Shown here piece after piece: positions 53,101 to 59,935 of a stretch of DNA of 64,000 nt. The position numbers were made by a program, and so were the translations under genes. The notes under the pieces were generated by a model, which worked only from the letters and a program-made list of their open reading frames with translations, made no database searches and had not been told where the DNA came from. The stretch is taken from positions 1,922,001 through 1,986,000 of the forward strand of contig NC_067305.1 in the NCBI RefSeq assembly GCF_020740795.1. The letters are read 5' to 3'. This DNA comes from Apus apus. Lineage: Eukaryota > Chordata > Aves > Apodiformes > Apodidae. Each line of letters opens with the position of its first letter. Within the stretch, counting starts at the first letter, position 1.

Positions 53101-56100
53101 CAGCAGTCAGGGATGCAGATGGAGCTGCCTTTTCCACCCTCCTGCCAAGAGCAGAGCCAGGCTGTCTGCAGCATGGAGGGAGGGCAGTGCAGAGACATCC
53201 CCCCATCTGCAGCCCCCCATCCCAGCTCAGCAGTGACATGGCTGTGACAGCATGGCCATGTGTGTCCCCTCAGGGACATGGTGTGAACTTTGGGGTTGTC
53301 GTCCTGGTCTGGGGTGGGAGTTGGACTTGGTGATCCAGGCTGTCTAAGGAGGTGGTTGAGCCACCATCCCTGGAGACATCAAAAAAGATGTGGTGCCAGG
53401 GGACAGGGTTTAGTGGTGAACATGGCAGAGTTAGGGTAGTGGTTGTACTCGATGATCTTGAAGGTTTTTTCCAACCAGAGTGATTCTGTGATGTGCTGCT
53501 CAGCCCTGTCCCCACCCTTGACAGCCCCTGCTCCATCTCTTGCAGAAGGAATTCCTCAGGTTTACTACTTTGGCCCCTGTGGGAAGTACAATGCCATGGT
53601 GTTGGAGCTGCTGGGACCCAGCCTGGAAGATCTTTTTGATCTGTGTGATCGGACCTTCACGCTCAAGACCGTCCTGATGATCGCGATCCAGCTGGTGGGT
53701 GTGGAACCTCTGCCCATGGCTCTGCTGGGTTCATCCAGGCCTGCCTGGCACAGATTGCCCCAGGGGAGCAGGGTGGGCACAGGGTGGGCTACGTGGGGAC
53801 CCCAGAGGGAAGGGGAAGGGAAGGAGGGGGGAGCCAGTGCCCAGCAGGAGATCCTGCCTGCTGGCACATCCCAGGCCACCTCCCCACACACCTCACCCTC
53901 TCCCTGCTGTAGCAGGGCCCTCCCTTACCCCCACGCAGCCCCTTTCTGAGTGTCTCTCACCTTGTATCCAAGATGTGGCCAGACTGAGGTTGTCTCCTGG
54001 GACTGGACAACCTGTTGTGCCCGTCCTTTTGACCCCAGGGTGACACACAACCTGAGGGGGGCAGGATTGCTGGGGGGGGGCAGGGGGGTGAGGCAATCTG
54101 AGCAGAGGAGGAGGGTGCAGGGGGTCTGGTGTGTCTCCCTCACAGTGCTGATGTCCTCTCCTGCCCCCAGATCACACGGATGGAGTATGTCCACACCAAA
54201 AGCCTCATCTACAGAGACGTCAAGCCAGAGAACTTCCTGGTGGGGCGGCCGGGCAGCAAGCGGCAGCACACCATCCACATCATCGATTTTGGCCTGGCCA
54301 AAGAGTATATTGACCCAGAGACCAAAAAACACATCCCCTACCGAGAGCACAAGAGCCTGACAGGGACAGCACGTTACATGAGCATCAACACCCACCTCGG
54401 GAAAGGTGTGTGCAGCCAGCCCTGCCTCCCAGCCCAAGGGGAGAGGGAAGGGAACTGCCAGAGGTGGGGCTGGGGACAAACTGCCTCTTCTGCTCTTCAG
54501 CCTGGGATGTGGGCAAGGAGCTGGGGATGCTGCAGGGTCTGGCAGGGACTGGGAAGGGGGATGCTGCAGGGTCTGGCAGGGACTGGGAAGGTGGCTGCAG
54601 GGTCTGGCAGGGACTGGGAAGGTGGCTGCAGGGGAAATGAGCCCATGTCTCTTTTTTTCCTTCATGCAGAACAAAGCCGCAGGGATGACCTGGAAGCATT
54701 AGGGCACATGTTTATGTACTTCCTCCGTGGGAGCCTTCCGTGGCAAGGCCTGAAGGTATCTGCCAGCTCCTGCTGTCCCTGGGCATGGCTGTCCTGGGGG
54801 GCTGGGTCTGCTCTGCCACTGGCAGCAGCCGGGTGTGTGGGGGAAGCTTTTTCTTCCTGGGTCAGTGCCCCACCAGATGGAGGGGCCGTTGCTCTGAGGT
54901 CTGTGCCAGGCCCGTGCTGTGCAGGGCGGCTGGAGATGTCCCTGTGTGTCCCTCCTGCTTTGCAGCTATCCCAGCTGCTCTCACAGTGGCTGTCCTGGAA
55001 CTGCACTCCTCAGTGCTTGTCCTATGGACCTGCTCTGGGTGAGGGGACTCCCTGGGAATGAGATCTCCTCCCTGGAGAAGGGAGACCAAGGAACCCTTTG
55101 TGGTCTGACAGCACCCAGTGCCTTCCCCCCTTCCCACCTGGCCATCCTGCTGACCTGCCCCTTGTCTCTGCCAGGCCGACACGCTAAAGGAGAGGTACCA
55201 GAAGATTGGTGACACCAAAAGAGCCACTCCAGTGGAGGTGCTCTGTGAGAACTTCCCAGGTGAGGGCCTGTCCCTGTCCCCAGAGCCCCCTGGCCTGGCA
55301 GCCTGCCCCCTGCCCCAGCTGAGCCCGCTCTGTCCCCGCAGAGGAGATGGCCACGTACCTGCGCTACGTGCGGCGGCTGGATTTCTTTGAGAAGCCCGAC
55401 TATGACTACCTGAGGAAGCTCTTCACAGACTTGTTCGAGAGGAACGGTTACGTGTTCGACTACGAATACGACTGGGCAGGGAAGCCACTGGTGAGGAGCA
55501 AGGGGGCAGGGGCTGGCAGAGGGTGCTGGGCCCCAGGGCGCCCAGGGGGCAGCGTGGTTGGGGGGTCAGGATGGTCTGTGGCTGCAGCCCAGGAGATCAT
55601 AGCCATCCCCAAGAGATCAGCTCCACCAGTCCTCAGCAGGCACAGCTCCAAGCCTGAGGTAGAGCTGGGACACAGGAATTTGGGGCTCCTGGGAACCCAG
55701 CAGTCAAGTTGTCACCTCCCTTTCTGCCCTGAGCACCCTCCAGGACTCAGTGCAGCCACACAGCAGGCGTGGCTGTTGGGGCAGGGGTAGGGGCTGGGAT
55801 CAAGCCCCTGTTCTGGGGTGGTTTGTATGTTTGTCCCAGGGTTGGCTCTGGGGGCACGGGGTGGCAGGAGGGTGACTGTGCTGCTGCTGATGTTGTCCTT
55901 GTGTCCCCAGCCCACCCCCATCGGCACGATGCACAGCGAGGTGCAGGTGCAGCCCCCGAGCAGAGACAAAGCACAGCCACACACCAAACACCAGGTGAGC
56001 AGCAGCCCTGCCAGGCACAGCTCCAGCAGCTGTGCCACAGCCCCGCAGGGCCTGGGCCTTCCTTTCATCCCCAGTGGGTGGGAGGGCTTCCTCTCCGAGT

Positions 56101-59100
56101 CTGTGGCTAGTGGGGGCACCAGGGCAGTGTCCCTGGGGCTGGGTGGCTTGGCAGAAGGAGGACAAAGCAGCCATGGGAGGCTCTGCCACGGCAGGGAAGT
56201 GCCAGGCCTGGCTGGCTGATGAGCTGCAGGGTTCAGCACCAGGCATGGTCCAGGCTGAGCCACCCCGTGCTGCGTGGCCCCTGGGAGTTATTTCCTGCTG
56301 TTTGTGGTGCCTCTTTCATCGATGGGATGGGGACACTGGAGAAGGGAGGGGGCTGCCTGGGCCTCCATGGGTATCCGTGGGCAGTGTGTGGCTCCGTGCT
56401 GGAAAGAGGGGCTGGCTCTGCCCTGGGAACCAGCAGGACATGTGGGGCTGAACTGGAACCAGCCCAGGGCAGGGATAGGCAGGGCTGTGCAGGCAGCTCC
56501 TGCCTGGCTCACCCTGGGGGAAAGGGCTGGGCTGCCCAGCCCTTCTCCAGTGCTGGGGCCTGGTGCAGGAAGGACAGCTCTGGGACTGCTGCCGTCAGGA
56601 GCACAAGGTCGGGCGTTTCCCCAGCAGTCCTGGACAGACCCTCAACCTCTTGCCTTCAGCCTGCACGGGGAGCAGAGCAAATGGGCTAGAGCTGGGGGTG
56701 CAGCACCCTGTCCTCCCTCACCCATGGAGGTGCCCCTCGCTGCTCCAGGACGAGCCTGGGGAGCTGGGACAGCCCTGGCTCTCACTGGCAGCTCTTCCTT
56801 AGGGAGGGGGCGACATCTTCACAGCCCCCCCTGGCTGATGCCCGGGAACTTGCTCACAGTAAGGGCTGCTTTCTGCCTCCAGCGTGGGAGAAGCGCCGTG
56901 GATCAACATCCCTTCTTGAGAGCCGTGGGCAAGGCAAAGCGTTCAACTCCCACAGCCTGGGAGCAGTTTCCAGCCTGGGGCTCTGCAGGGACCCCCAGCG
57001 CCACGGGGCTGTGCCGTGCTCACCGTGAGGAGGGTTTGGCAGGGAGGAGCCCGTGTCCCCGGGGAGCAGCGCAGCTCACTTCGCCGCCGTCTCAGCCGGC
57101 TGGGAAGCGCTGCCCTCGGCCGGCAGCCTCTGCCCCCGCAGCGAGCGGCTCCGCCCGCCCCGCACGCAGCCCTGGGCGGGACCGGGGACCCTCCGCGCCT
57201 GGGGAGACGTGCCCAGAGCCCCGCTCCGCGCCGGGCTGTGTGTGTGTCCGTGGCACGGAGGGTGCAGCCCCGCGGTGCCGCCGCAGGGACCGGGACAGTG
57301 CCCTTCACAGTCACAAACTCGAGCTGCTCCGGTCATGTTTTTTGCTTTTGCATGTCTTATTTTCTCGACTCCCTTTGCCACTTCTTCTCCCTGCCCCTGC
57401 CCCTTCCACCTCTCCCTTCTCTTCCCCATTCCTCCTCTTTTTTTCTTTTGTTTCTTTTCATCCTGTTCCTCCTGCCTGTCGCGAGCAGCCGCCCGAGGGG
57501 ACGGAGTTGTGGGATCCTCAGGCCGGGGGGCAGCCTGCCGAGGAGCCTGTGGGAGCTCACCTGGCAGCCGGCAGGCTCGGGGGGTCCGTCCAGGTACATG
57601 CAACCACGCGCCGAGGGCAGGGGCGGGCACGGGGGGTGACAGAGCCAACCTGCCCCACACCACCTGCCTGTGCCAGGCCCAGCCCTGCTCCCCTTGCACA
57701 GGCGCAGGGTCTGGCCCCGGCTGCCACACCCGGAGCTGGGGGCTGTGCTGCCCTGCCCGTGGTGGGGGGTGCTCACAGCTCACAGACCAGGCTGCTGCTG
57801 CTTCCCGGGGGCTGCCAGGCTCCCTTGGTGCTGCTGGTGGGACTCAGCAGGCAGAGGTGGGCAAAGCACTGACTGCCAGGCAGGGGGTGGGCATCAGGAT
57901 CTGCCCCCAGTGCTGCCAGTCCCAGCAGTGCCGGACAACGTGGCCTCATCCCACCCGGGGACTTCCCTGTGCCTCCTTTGGCCGGAGTGACGGCTTCCAG
58001 CCCTGCCCTCCTCTCTCTCCCTGGGGCTCCTCAGCCCTGGCTCCCTGTGCTCACTGCCCTGCGCCCCTCGGGCCGGGGGGCTCAGCCCAGGGGGGTGGCC
58101 GGGCACCACAAACCCCCCCGGGCTGGGCCTGCGCCGCTTCCTCCGTCTCTGCTTCCGTCCCCGCCGCTGCCGCTTCTTCCTGCTGCTCCGCCGGGAATCT
58201 CTGCTGGTGCTGGGCCCTGGGCCAGGCCGTGGGGCTCACGCTCTGCCCTGCTCCTCCTGCACCACCTCCCCTCCCTGCTGCTGCTCCCTGCTCTCGCTCT
58301 GCCAACCTCCCCCGTCCTGTGCCCGGCGCTGCGGGGGTCTCGGTGGCGCTCGGGGGGTCTCTGGGCCTGTTTCTGGGACTGCAGCTGGAGGCTGCCCGGC
58401 GGGCTGGGCACTGCCTGCCGGATGGCAGCTCCTCCACGAGCCTGGGGAAGGCCAAGCCTCCTCAGAGGGATGAGCAGCTTGGCCATCCTTGGGCCTGTGC
58501 ATCCCCGGGGAGCTCCTGGCTTTGCCTGGGGGCAGCAGGCACAAGAAGGGGTCCAGGCAAGCCCCAGTTGCCTGTGCCAGCCCCATCGTTGCTTTGGTGG
58601 CTTGGATCTCCTCGCGGCCCTGGCACCCTGCGCAGCCCTGCAGGGTGGGCACTGGGCTGGGTCCTGCAGGGTCTGGCCGTGCTGGGGAGCAGGAGCTGTG
58701 GCCACTCGCTGGGCCATGGTTGAGGTCTCCTCGGAGCTGACAGCTTCATGGGGCTGTCTCCCAGACCCATTGCGGCTGGCTGCCAGTAATCCCCTCATCC
58801 CGGGGGGTCTGCAGGGGTTCCCAGGAGCCAAGATCCTCCTGGAGACACCGAGGGAACCAGACCACCCTGTATGATGGGGCTGTCTGGGAGCGCTCAGCAC
58901 CGAGGCTGAGCACTGGCTGTCGGGGCAAGGGCACCATCCTGCATGGGGACCTCGGTGCTCCCAGCTCGTGCAGGGCCAGGGGAGCTGTGTCACCTCCTGG
59001 GGCTGTTCTGAGATGCAGCTGCCGTGGGGTGGGGGACAAGGCCAAGGACCTGCCCATGCCCCACGGGCCGCCCCACGCTGACCCTCTTCTCTCCCCAGGT

Positions 59101-59935
59101 GATGAGCTCTACCAACGGAGAGCTGAACACAGACGACCCGACGGCAGGACATTCAAACGCCCCCATCACAGCCCCCACCGAGGTGGAGGTGACAGACGAT
59201 ACAAAGTAAGGACCAGGCCCCTCTGCCTCCCTCTCCCCAGGGCCAAAGGGGACTCTGGTTCCAGCAGCTGCCCTGCCCCACCTTGCCCAGTCCCCTCCTG
59301 GGAGGAGCAGCCCAGCTTCAGAGCGAGGAACTCCCGCTCTCCCTTGGGACCCCACCAAGGGGGGTCCCTCCAGGGCCACCACCCCCCTGTCCCCTTCCCG
59401 CCTCACCCTGCCCGGCCCCAGGGCTCACACCTTCTCCCAGAAGCCAGCGCAGAGGGTTGTCCGTGGATCCAGGGCCGTTCCTTCTCCAGGAGCCCCTGCC
59501 TGGCTGCGACTCCAGCCGCTGGTGTTGGCTGCGGCTGCCGCTGCATCCCGTGCCCCGTGTCACTTGCTCTGGTTGGGGTCACTGTGGCCATCACTTTGCT
59601 CCCACCTCAGCCTCTGCCAGCTGCCAGGAACCCTTCCCAGAGCTGAGGGGCTTCTAGTCCCCCTGCACCCCCTCTGCCCTGGCTGCGGGGCTGCTGAGCC
59701 CATCCCTGGAATGGCCTTCCCAGGTGGAGTCACCTCCCCTGGAGGCGTTCAGGGACAGGCTGGACGTGACACTTAGTGCGGCGTCAGCTCAGAGGCTGAA
59801 CTTGCTGCTCAGATCTTTCCCACCCTGGGTGATCCTGTGTGTCCCACCCCCTGATGCCGACGCCTCCTTTCCCTCCCCAGGTGCTGCTGTTTCTTCAAGA
59901 GAAGGAAGAGGAAAACCACCAAGCGTCGCAAGTGA
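43980..59935 (+). CDS. CSNK1G2: CSNK1G2, casein kinase 1 gamma 2
   Basis: CK1 gamma kinases are membrane-anchored Ser/Thr kinases; family members phosphorylate the Wnt co-receptor LRP6 and other membrane-proximal substrates. Eleven exons joined with GT-AG introns (43980-44166, 52254-52294, 52820-52889, 53546-53694, 54171-54405, 54670-54755, 55175-55259, 55342-55490, 55911-55994, 59099-59205, 59881-59935) give 415 codons plus TGA, the length I recall for human CSNK1G2. Visible motifs: glycine loop IGCGNFG (52-58), catalytic Lys75 in [12 protein letters not shown] (163-170) with Asp165, DFG at 188-190, the CK1-type TARYMSIN (215-222) and the tail [12 protein letters not shown] (398-409), whose cysteines are the known lipid-anchor site. 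The N-terminus, [11 protein letters not shown], distinguishes G2 from G1 and G3. The SCAMP4 neighbour agrees. The start codon has a weak context (CTTATGG). Confidence 0.97.
47496..47894 (+). mobile_element. CR1 LINE 3' fragment with intact tail
   Basis: GTTCAGCCTGGAGACAAGGA, GGAGGTTTAGATTGGATATT, GTAGATGTGGTGCTGAGGGA and TTGGACTTGACAATCTTAAG, then CCAACCAAAATGATTCTTTT. Lineage of 5880-6397. Confidence 0.92.
50396..50688 (+). mobile_element. CR1 LINE 3' fragment with terminal repeats
   Basis: AACCAGAGGAAATGGCCTCA, GGTTTAGATTGGATATTAGG, AACTTGATGATCTCCAAGGT and CCAAAATCATTCCATGATTC, followed by further TATGATTCTATTCC repeats. It closely resembles 47496-47894. Confidence 0.93.
52254..52294 (+). 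CDS. CSNK1G2: CSNK1G2 coding exon 2 (catalytic lysine)
   Basis: A 41 bp exon encoding [13 protein letters not shown], including the ATP-anchoring Lys75. Acceptor CTCCCTGCAG, donor GTGAGT. The small size and phase fit CK1 gamma gene structure. Confidence 0.97.
52820..52889 (+). CDS. CSNK1G2: CSNK1G2 coding exon 3 (helix C)
   Basis: A 70 bp exon encoding [19 protein letters not shown] and LGNA, with the helix-C glutamate (Glu89), ending in the first base of Glu100. Acceptor CTCCTCCAAG, donor GTACAG. Confidence 0.97.
53318..53495 (+). mobile_element. CR1 LINE 3' end, 50 bp before a kinase exon
   Basis: GAGCCACCATCCCTGGAGAC, GATGTGGTGCCAGGGGACAG and GATGATCTTGAAGGTTTTTT, then CCAACCAGAGTGATTCTGTG. 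It ends 50 bp upstream of the exon starting at 53546. Confidence 0.88.
53546..53694 (+). CDS. CSNK1G2: CSNK1G2 coding exon 4
   Basis: It encodes [36 protein letters not shown] and [14 protein letters not shown] (residues 100-149), the hinge and helix D/E region of the kinase. Acceptor TCTCTTGCAG, donor GTGGGT. Confidence 0.97.
54171..54405 (+). CDS. CSNK1G2: CSNK1G2 coding exon 5 (catalytic and activation loops)
   Basis: The largest exon, 235 bp. It encodes [49 protein letters not shown] and [17 protein letters not shown]. The catalytic Asp165, the DFG motif and the CK1 signature TARYMSIN are all intact. Donor GTGTGT. Confidence 0.98.
54525..54631. repeat. Short tandem repeat in a kinase intron
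   Basis: Three to four copies of a ~30-38 bp unit containing GCTGCAGGGTCTGGCAGGGA and CTGGGAAGG. It ends about 40 bp before the acceptor of the exon at 54670. A small minisatellite, otherwise unremarkable. Confidence 0.9.
54670..54755 (+). CDS. CSNK1G2: CSNK1G2 coding exon 6
   Basis: It encodes [19 protein letters not shown] and [10 protein letters not shown]. Acceptor TTCATGCAG, donor GTATCT. This is the highly conserved helix F region of CK1 kinases. Confidence 0.98.
55175..55259 (+). CDS. CSNK1G2: CSNK1G2 coding exon 7
   Basis: It encodes [19 protein letters not shown] and VEVLCENFP, ending with the first base of the next Glu. Acceptor TCTCTGCCAG, donor GTGAGG. Confidence 0.97.
55342..55490 (+). 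CDS. CSNK1G2: CSNK1G2 coding exon 8 (end of kinase domain)
   Basis: It encodes [38 protein letters not shown] and [12 protein letters not shown], closing the kinase domain. Acceptor TCCCCGCAG, donor GTGAGG. Confidence 0.98.
55911..55994 (+). CDS. CSNK1G2: CSNK1G2 coding exon 9 (variable linker)
   Basis: An 84 bp phase-0 exon encoding [19 protein letters not shown] and KAQPHTKHQ (residues 335-362). PTPIGT is conserved in CK1 gamma; the rest is the variable linker before the tail. Both flanking introns are phase 0, so an in-frame cassette can be added after it. Confidence 0.95.
55995..57488 (+). other. CSNK1G2: CSNK1G2 intron before the optional exon
   Basis: It contains a CpG-rich segment at about 57040-57300 and a long pyrimidine-rich stretch at about 57355-57480. 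No constitutive exon is needed here, since exons 9 and 10 join in phase 0. The long open frames across it reflect its GC content. Confidence 0.7.
57349..57354 (+). promoter_or_regulatory. TGCATG splicing element upstream of the optional exon
   Basis: TGCATG, the RBFOX-family binding hexamer, lies 135 bases upstream of the optional exon and just before its pyrimidine tract. In known cases an upstream site tends to repress the following exon. Its role here is inference from one six-base match. Confidence 0.35.
57489..57593 (+). CDS. CSNK1G2: CSNK1G2 optional cassette exon (35 codons)
   Basis: A 105 bp phase-0 frame encodes [30 protein letters not shown] and GGSVQ between acceptor GCGAGCAG and donor GTACAT. 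It would insert between residues 362 and 363 and give a 450-residue kinase. The pattern W-D-x-Q, then AHLAA-R-GGSVQ, matches the alternative C-terminal exon I remember from long CSNK1G3 isoforms and sits at the same position. The second AG three bases upstream of the used one (57485) would add one Gln in frame. Unlike the 11 constitutive exons it is proline/glycine-rich. Expression is not shown by sequence alone. Confidence 0.75.
57594..59098 (+). other. CSNK1G2: CSNK1G2 intron after the optional exon
   Basis: About 1.5 kb of GC-rich intron ending in TTCTCTCCCCAG. Long open frames on both strands (for example minus strand 58082-59152) have no recognisable domain and are attributed to base composition. 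Confidence 0.7.
59099..59205 (+). CDS. CSNK1G2: CSNK1G2 coding exon 10
   Basis: It encodes [19 protein letters not shown] and [17 protein letters not shown], ending two bases into the final Lys codon. The [12 protein letters not shown] motif is shared by all vertebrate CK1 gamma paralogues. Donor GTAAGG. Confidence 0.97.
59690..59850 (+). mobile_element. Old diverged CR1 LINE 3' fragment
   Basis: CCTGGAGGCGTTCAGGGACA, GGCTGGACGTGACACTTAGT and a decayed GATCTTTCCCACCCTGGGTG end resemble an old CR1 copy. It ends about 30 bp before the last kinase exon. The call is less certain because of divergence. Confidence 0.6.
59881..59935 (+). CDS. CSNK1G2: CSNK1G2 last coding exon (membrane-anchor tail)
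   Basis: It completes Lys398, then [17 protein letters not shown] and TGA at 59933-59935. The three cysteines plus the basic cluster are the known CK1 gamma plasma-membrane anchor. The last six residues, TTKRRK, differ from the SLQRHK I recall for human G2. Confidence 0.97.

Follow-up and report, generated by a model that had tools for sequence, protein, structure and literature searches.

A probable ancestral CK1-gamma cassette exon behind a long pyrimidine tract in CSNK1G2 of Apus apus

The 64-kb stretch of Apus apus DNA analysed here (the window) carries CSNK1G2 on its + strand. The host gene was identified from the 213 residues encoded by the joined exons within 54171-55994, for which the best PDB chains were CK1-gamma-2 (2c47, 30ix), with 444.4 bits for gamma-2 versus 409.3 for gamma-3 and 407.6 for gamma-1. 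A linker exon at 55911-55994 (+ strand), which ends in the donor CAG/gtgagc, is followed by an exon at 59099-59205 (+ strand) and by the last coding exon at 59881-59935 (+ strand), which encodes the tail with its cysteine cluster. The first two of these are exons 9 and 10 in the numbering of the original prediction. Between them, a 105-nt phase-0 frame had been proposed as an optional exon. Indeed, the frame at 57489-57593 (+ strand) is stop-free over 105 nt and translates in phase 0 into 35 residues. AG and GT border it, and its phase fits both neighbours, the one that ends at 55994 and the one that starts at 59099, so that length, flanks and phase were all confirmed. The proposed placement in the linker ahead of the membrane tail also holds; inclusion would insert the 35 residues after the kinase domain and ahead of the cysteine-rich tail with its CCCFF.

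The frame and its borders have to be read with caution. The open frame around the exon runs for 537 codons, and the absence of stops is thus no evidence. Furthermore, the CSNK1G2 intron contains five AG..GT pairs (the exon included) that enclose 60-180 nt without a stop in phase 0 and score at least as high as the exon at both sites, and because the four other pairs score as well, an open frame with splice sites proves nothing by itself.

Counterparts of the exon are present in both Apus apus paralogs, which were identified as CSNK1G3 and CSNK1G1 by their best PDB matches to chains named gamma-3 and gamma-1. The CSNK1G3 counterpart is 96 nt long (C36:62735411-62735506) and that of CSNK1G1 108 nt (C11:827095-827202). 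Both are in phase 0, and in all three genes the exon occupies the same intron, after the linker exon and before the exon starting V(V/M)SSTNGELN. A multiple-of-three length, AG and GT flanks and phase 0 are common to the 105-nt (CSNK1G2), 96-nt (CSNK1G3) and 108-nt (CSNK1G1) copies. The original prediction was therefore right about a related CSNK1G3 exon at the matching position, and CSNK1G1 has a counterpart too. A 26-residue query from the human CSNK1G3 insertion matched the genome on C36 (100%) and on C11 (70% over 23 residues); its genome matches were in CSNK1G3 and CSNK1G1 only, and the CSNK1G2 locus was not among them. The CSNK1G2 copy was linked to its paralogs by tblastn of the CSNK1G2 tail and by a Pfam genome search. 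In the tblastn comparison with the paralog loci, the counterpart exons ranked fourth (E 0.001 in CSNK1G3 and 0.007 in CSNK1G1), and the three higher ranks at each locus were the true neighbouring exons.

When the 35 residues were aligned to the CSNK1G1 and CSNK1G3 exons of Apus apus, as had been suggested, 12 of the 36 columns were invariant in the three peptides, comprising a W, one Q and the terminal HLAA-R-GGSVQ. The last 12 residues are identical in CSNK1G3 and CSNK1G1, and CSNK1G2 departs from them at two (D to G and H to L). Relative to the conserved W and the ending HLAADRHGGSVQ, the CSNK1G2 exon thus keeps the W and 10 of the 12 core residues, and the CSNK1G2 and CSNK1G3 exons have 11 of their terminal 13 residues in common. 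Outside the core the CSNK1G2 copy resembles the other two least, and it is the most diverged overall. Searched alone against the PDB at E up to 10, the exon retrieved eight distinct sequences (best E 0.0042), which were designed repeat proteins and a quinoprotein, with no stretch passing on its own; these matches were judged to be chance.

A whole-genome search with the Pfam profile CK1gamma_C (PF12605; 89 positions, curated cut-off 21.2 bits) gave nine matches at E up to 10, with 10 candidates scored. Eight of them were marked over the cut-off, one only with its neighbours, and all eight are exons of the three CK1-gamma genes. They include both counterparts and the CSNK1G2 exon, which scored 21.3 bits against the cut-off of 21.2; the ninth match, on C4, contains internal stops. 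Removal of the exon lowered the score of the CSNK1G2 tail on this profile from 104.5 to 62.3 bits, and controls in which the exon was reversed or replaced by a hand-typed scramble scored 66.1 and 67.6 bits. Among 24736 Pfam models searched with the exon alone at E up to 1, CK1gamma_C was the only match (E 0.0045). The match spans positions 36-66 of the 89 in the profile, and the exon passes the cut-off with its neighbours or in the genome frame, whereas alone it stays below it at 18.4 bits. Counterparts with the same intron, phase and ending, together with the Pfam matches, argue for an ancestral cassette and against a chance frame. On this comparison of sequences, the CSNK1G2 exon is probably an ancestral CK1-gamma cassette that is older than the separation of CSNK1G1, CSNK1G2 and CSNK1G3. 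The proposal that the exon is ancient is in line with its homologous counterparts, which have sequence, intron position and phase in common with it.

The paralogs also allowed selection to be assessed, although over the whole time since duplication and not over bird divergence. In the 13-codon core, which was picked after the alignment was seen, the three paralog pairs differed by 0.79-0.94 per synonymous site (saturated) and by 0.04-0.11 per non-synonymous site. Fisher tests on rounded counts gave p values of 1.8e-7 for CSNK1G3-CSNK1G1, 1.3e-5 for CSNK1G3-CSNK1G2 and 4.7e-5 for CSNK1G1-CSNK1G2. Over the full exon, p was 2.4e-12 for CSNK1G3-CSNK1G1 and weaker for the pairs with CSNK1G2 (0.0003 and 0.0083). 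When the last 12 codons were evolved neutrally in a simulation that started from the CSNK1G1 sequence, at most two changed residues and no stop were seen with P of 0.19, 0.046 and 0.012 at 0.2, 0.3 and 0.4 substitutions per site, respectively. The neutral rate of birds is roughly 2e-9 per site per year. Because the core would still be in its present state with P of 0.19-0.05 after 0.2-0.3 neutral substitutions per site along the CSNK1G2 branch, a loss of function of the CSNK1G2 exon within the last ~100 million years is possible.

The splice sites had been described as good, which is wrong for the acceptor. Scored with vertebrate frequency tables and compared with acceptors of the 3' part of each gene, the acceptor of the CSNK1G2 exon reached 2.4 bits versus 7.5-13.0 for seven other acceptors of the gene. 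The corresponding values were 0.2 versus 5.2-7.8 in CSNK1G3 and -1.0 versus 8.6-11.0 in CSNK1G1 (four others each), so that the exon's acceptor is the weakest scored in each of the three genes. The three acceptors (CSNK1G2, CSNK1G3, CSNK1G1) only reach the top 26%, 43% and 51% of the AGs in the window. The donors CAG/gtacat (CSNK1G2), CAG/gtattt (CSNK1G3) and CAG/gtacct (CSNK1G1) all lack a G at +5; their scores of 5.9, 6.1 and 5.5 are low, yet not the lowest in any of the genes. The CSNK1G2 donor belongs to the top 5.7% of window GTs and is the second lowest of the seven donors scored. The CSNK1G2 (57483-57488) and CSNK1G1 acceptors both end in GAGCAG, a tandem NAGNAG arrangement that could add one Q. 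An acceptor inside the CSNK1G2 exon, at 57522, has a local score of 4.7 versus 2.4 for the proposed one, and its use would give a shorter in-frame exon of 72 nt that retains the conserved core; because this internal acceptor scores better, the 5' edge of the exon is uncertain.

Upstream of the exon lies an AG-free zone of 163 nt (57324-57486, + strand), defined by a rule that passes over the GAG at 57483-57485. In each gene the longest AG-free zone is the one that belongs to this exon, with 163 versus at most 66 nt in CSNK1G2, 110 versus at most 40 nt in CSNK1G1 and 63 versus at most 57 nt in CSNK1G3, where it is only slightly above its neighbours. The 163-nt zone is the largest among the eight CSNK1G2 acceptors scored and is longer than the 100-150 nt used as a criterion for distant-branch-point cassette exons. 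Zones of at least 150 nt were found for 5 of 5092 window AGs, counting AGs within the same 163-nt zone. For comparison, the available text of PMC1431707 gives, among 67,334 human exons, 838 with an AG-free zone of at least 100 nt and 165 with at least 150 nt; cassettes made up 68 of 235 exons with a zone over 100 nt versus 47 expected, and the experimentally studied distant-branch-point exons, few in number, were all PTB-regulated. The CSNK1G2 exon resembles the type represented by PTB exon 11 and alpha-tropomyosin exon 3 in its pyrimidine tract and in its zone of more than 150 nt, which has a CTTAT in its 5' part (at -130). It differs in having a second candidate branch point, TTCAT at -29, and both candidates are known here as consensus words only. 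As the candidate at -29 lies at a normal distance, CSNK1G2 could do without a distant branch point.

The pyrimidine tract itself spans 57369-57473 (+ strand; 46% C and 46% T). The claim of a nearly pure pyrimidine stretch at 57355-57480 was upheld, with 112 pyrimidines in 126 bases (88.9%). With a score of 60, the tract ranks first among the pyrimidine segments of the window's + strand (the second scores 57), and its score is beyond the maximum of 27 found in 500 dinucleotide shuffles of the intron. In CSNK1G1, the tract ends ~15 nt before the exon and is the best + strand segment of the 20 kb analysed for this gene; the CSNK1G3 tract is unremarkable. The idea that the exon is a regulated cassette with a long pyrimidine tract ahead of it is supported by its anatomy only. 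The word UCUU occurs six times in the 150 nt upstream of the CSNK1G2 exon, and C makes up 56% of the tract in its 5' half. The RBFOX-type word TGCATG does lie at 57349-57354 (+ strand), where it had been reported, at a frequency near chance (two in the CSNK1G2 intron versus 1.13 expected). Its place is not common to the paralogs, as CSNK1G3 has one at +67 and CSNK1G1 none within 500 nt of the exon. Its reading as an RBFOX element was dropped, because it is not clearly above chance. Two ACTAAC words are located at -93 and -85 of the CSNK1G1 copy, as QKI-type words or distant branch points; ACTAAC/T is absent within 500 nt of the CSNK1G2 exon.

A different alternative exon of the family has been linked to PTB. 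The PTBP1-responsive CSNK1G3 event in the available part of PMC4358235 is a 24-nt exon; it resembles the CSNK1G2 exon in being an in-frame exon of the same gene family and differs in length, which rules it out as the counterpart of the 105-nt exon. Candidate 24-nt microexons were observed in CSNK1G3 (C36:62742856-62742879; peptide NCQKVLNMW) and CSNK1G1 (C11:831925-831948; peptide NCLKMLNLW). Both have high-scoring splice sites and precede the cysteine-tail exon, one intron below the insertion exon. They are candidates for a second ancient cassette, and the one in CSNK1G3 may, by its length, be the event of PMC4358235 as described in that part of the paper. In the CSNK1G2 intron 59206-59880, no comparable microexon was found among the best 4 of 27 candidates, and CRRLLSL at 59855, the peptide that matched best, did not outscore background matches from introns of the paralogs. 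Of the two exons, CSNK1G2 may retain only the 105-nt one, the microexon having been lost.

At the protein level, the CSNK1G3 exon presumably corresponds, by its size, its place and the human sequence, to the 33-residue insertion described for CK1-gamma-3. That insertion, near the C terminus, is termed unique to CK1-gamma-3 in the available text of PMC9157009 (2022), which singles it out as the only major structural departure of gamma-3 from its relatives and calls deletion studies necessary. The same text reports that gamma-3 alone of the family activated a WNT reporter when overexpressed by itself in human cells, whereas all three CK1-gamma kinases did so with LRP6 co-expressed; it would have the insertion tested as a possible cause of the activity of gamma-3 on its own. 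The CSNK1G2 exon resembles the insertion, as encoded by Apus apus CSNK1G3, in its intron, phase 0, similar length, W and HLAA-R-GGSVQ. It differs in the two replacements in the gamma-2 core, and the sequence termed gamma-3-only in that text is here encoded by gamma-2 and gamma-1 too. The CK1-gamma-3 chains 2izr, 4g16 and 2chl in the PDB end at the last residue before the exon (query 1-81 of 81), and the insertion is thus absent from these constructs.

Taken together, the best explanation is that CSNK1G2 carries its own copy of the ancestral CK1-gamma cassette, probably regulated and optional and controlled through the tract, which would alter the linker; we give this reading a probability of about 0.72. 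The combination of a weak acceptor with a long AG-free pyrimidine tract suggests that inclusion probably depends on pyrimidine-tract proteins. PTB would be the first choice as a factor that represses the exon in most cells, for which the six UCUU words upstream are suggestive only, and low PTBP1 or binders of C-rich tracts (PCBP/alphaCP) would favour inclusion. Inclusion would add 35 residues with the conserved W and the HLAA-R-GGSVQ core to the linker between kinase and tail. By analogy with CK1-gamma-3, this core would probably be a short docking motif, with an effect on the choice of membrane substrates or WNT-receptor partners by the kinase.

Within an optional exon, the tract might instead act mainly through PCBP/alphaCP or another factor than PTB or RBFOX. 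This is a serious alternative, though less likely than not, given the C content of the 5' half of the tract and the promotion of cassette exons behind C-rich tracts by alphaCPs (in the available text of PMC4797308). Control may also differ between paralogs, as the two ACTAAC words of the CSNK1G1 copy suggest, but the six UCUU words suit PTB, and the CSNK1G2 exon has no such ACTAAC/T within 500 nt. It is unlikely, though not negligibly so, that the exon is a relic, an ancestral exon that is no longer spliced into CSNK1G2 and is decaying while G+C-rich sequence holds its frame open. Such a relic would be consistent with the weakest acceptor scored in the gene, with two replacements at core residues that are unchanged between CSNK1G1 and CSNK1G3, with a frame so long that missing stops prove nothing, and with a simulation that allows recent neutrality of the core. 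However, the acceptors of the paralog exons score even lower, so that weakness looks like an ancestral style and not like decay. The core differences are mostly synonymous, the AG and GT sites and the phase are maintained, and so is the tract that scores best on the window's + strand.

Another alternative, a constitutive, non-optional exon in Apus apus CSNK1G2, would fit the phase, the intact frame and the long tract. It is nevertheless very improbable in view of the purines by the acceptor (gcgagcag), the donor without G at +5 and the 163-nt AG-free zone, and CK1-gamma-2 is listed in one size only, 415 aa, in the available text of a review (PMC4201705). Practically negligible is the probability of a chance open frame that is no exon. 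Four other AG..GT pairs of the intron score as well, and the 26-residue CSNK1G3 query had no match at the CSNK1G2 locus, but the frame has the intron position and 11 of 13 terminal residues in common with the CSNK1G3 exon, and its Pfam matches come with a reversal control; a chance frame was rejected on homology (tblastn, PF12605).

Genome annotations may already predict the CSNK1G2 exon, and a longer CSNK1G1 isoform is annotated. Literature searches, which covered the best matches for some queries, turned up no paper on a copy of the exon in CSNK1G2 or CSNK1G1, and a text search with peptide pieces returned 0 papers. CSNK1G1 is absent from the main text of PMC12626420 in its available part, and the available parts of PMC7733671, PMC6892881, PMC9132324, PMC4032983, PMC9254030, PMC8187152 and PMC3158048 contained nothing decisive.

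Should the exon be in use, it would show that an optional exon can persist for a very long time in three duplicate genes despite weak splice signals. A further-reaching and rather doubtful idea regards the insertion as an ancestral WNT module, switched by splicing and common to all CK1-gamma kinases, whose inclusion would turn each paralog from passive to WNT-activating. If so, the apparent uniqueness of gamma-3 would reflect the comparison with gamma-1 and gamma-2 forms without the exon, which was possibly lost in mammalian gamma-2. The diverged natural insertions of gamma-1 and gamma-2 would offer ready-made swaps for the question whether the insertion makes a CK1-gamma kinase WNT-activating.
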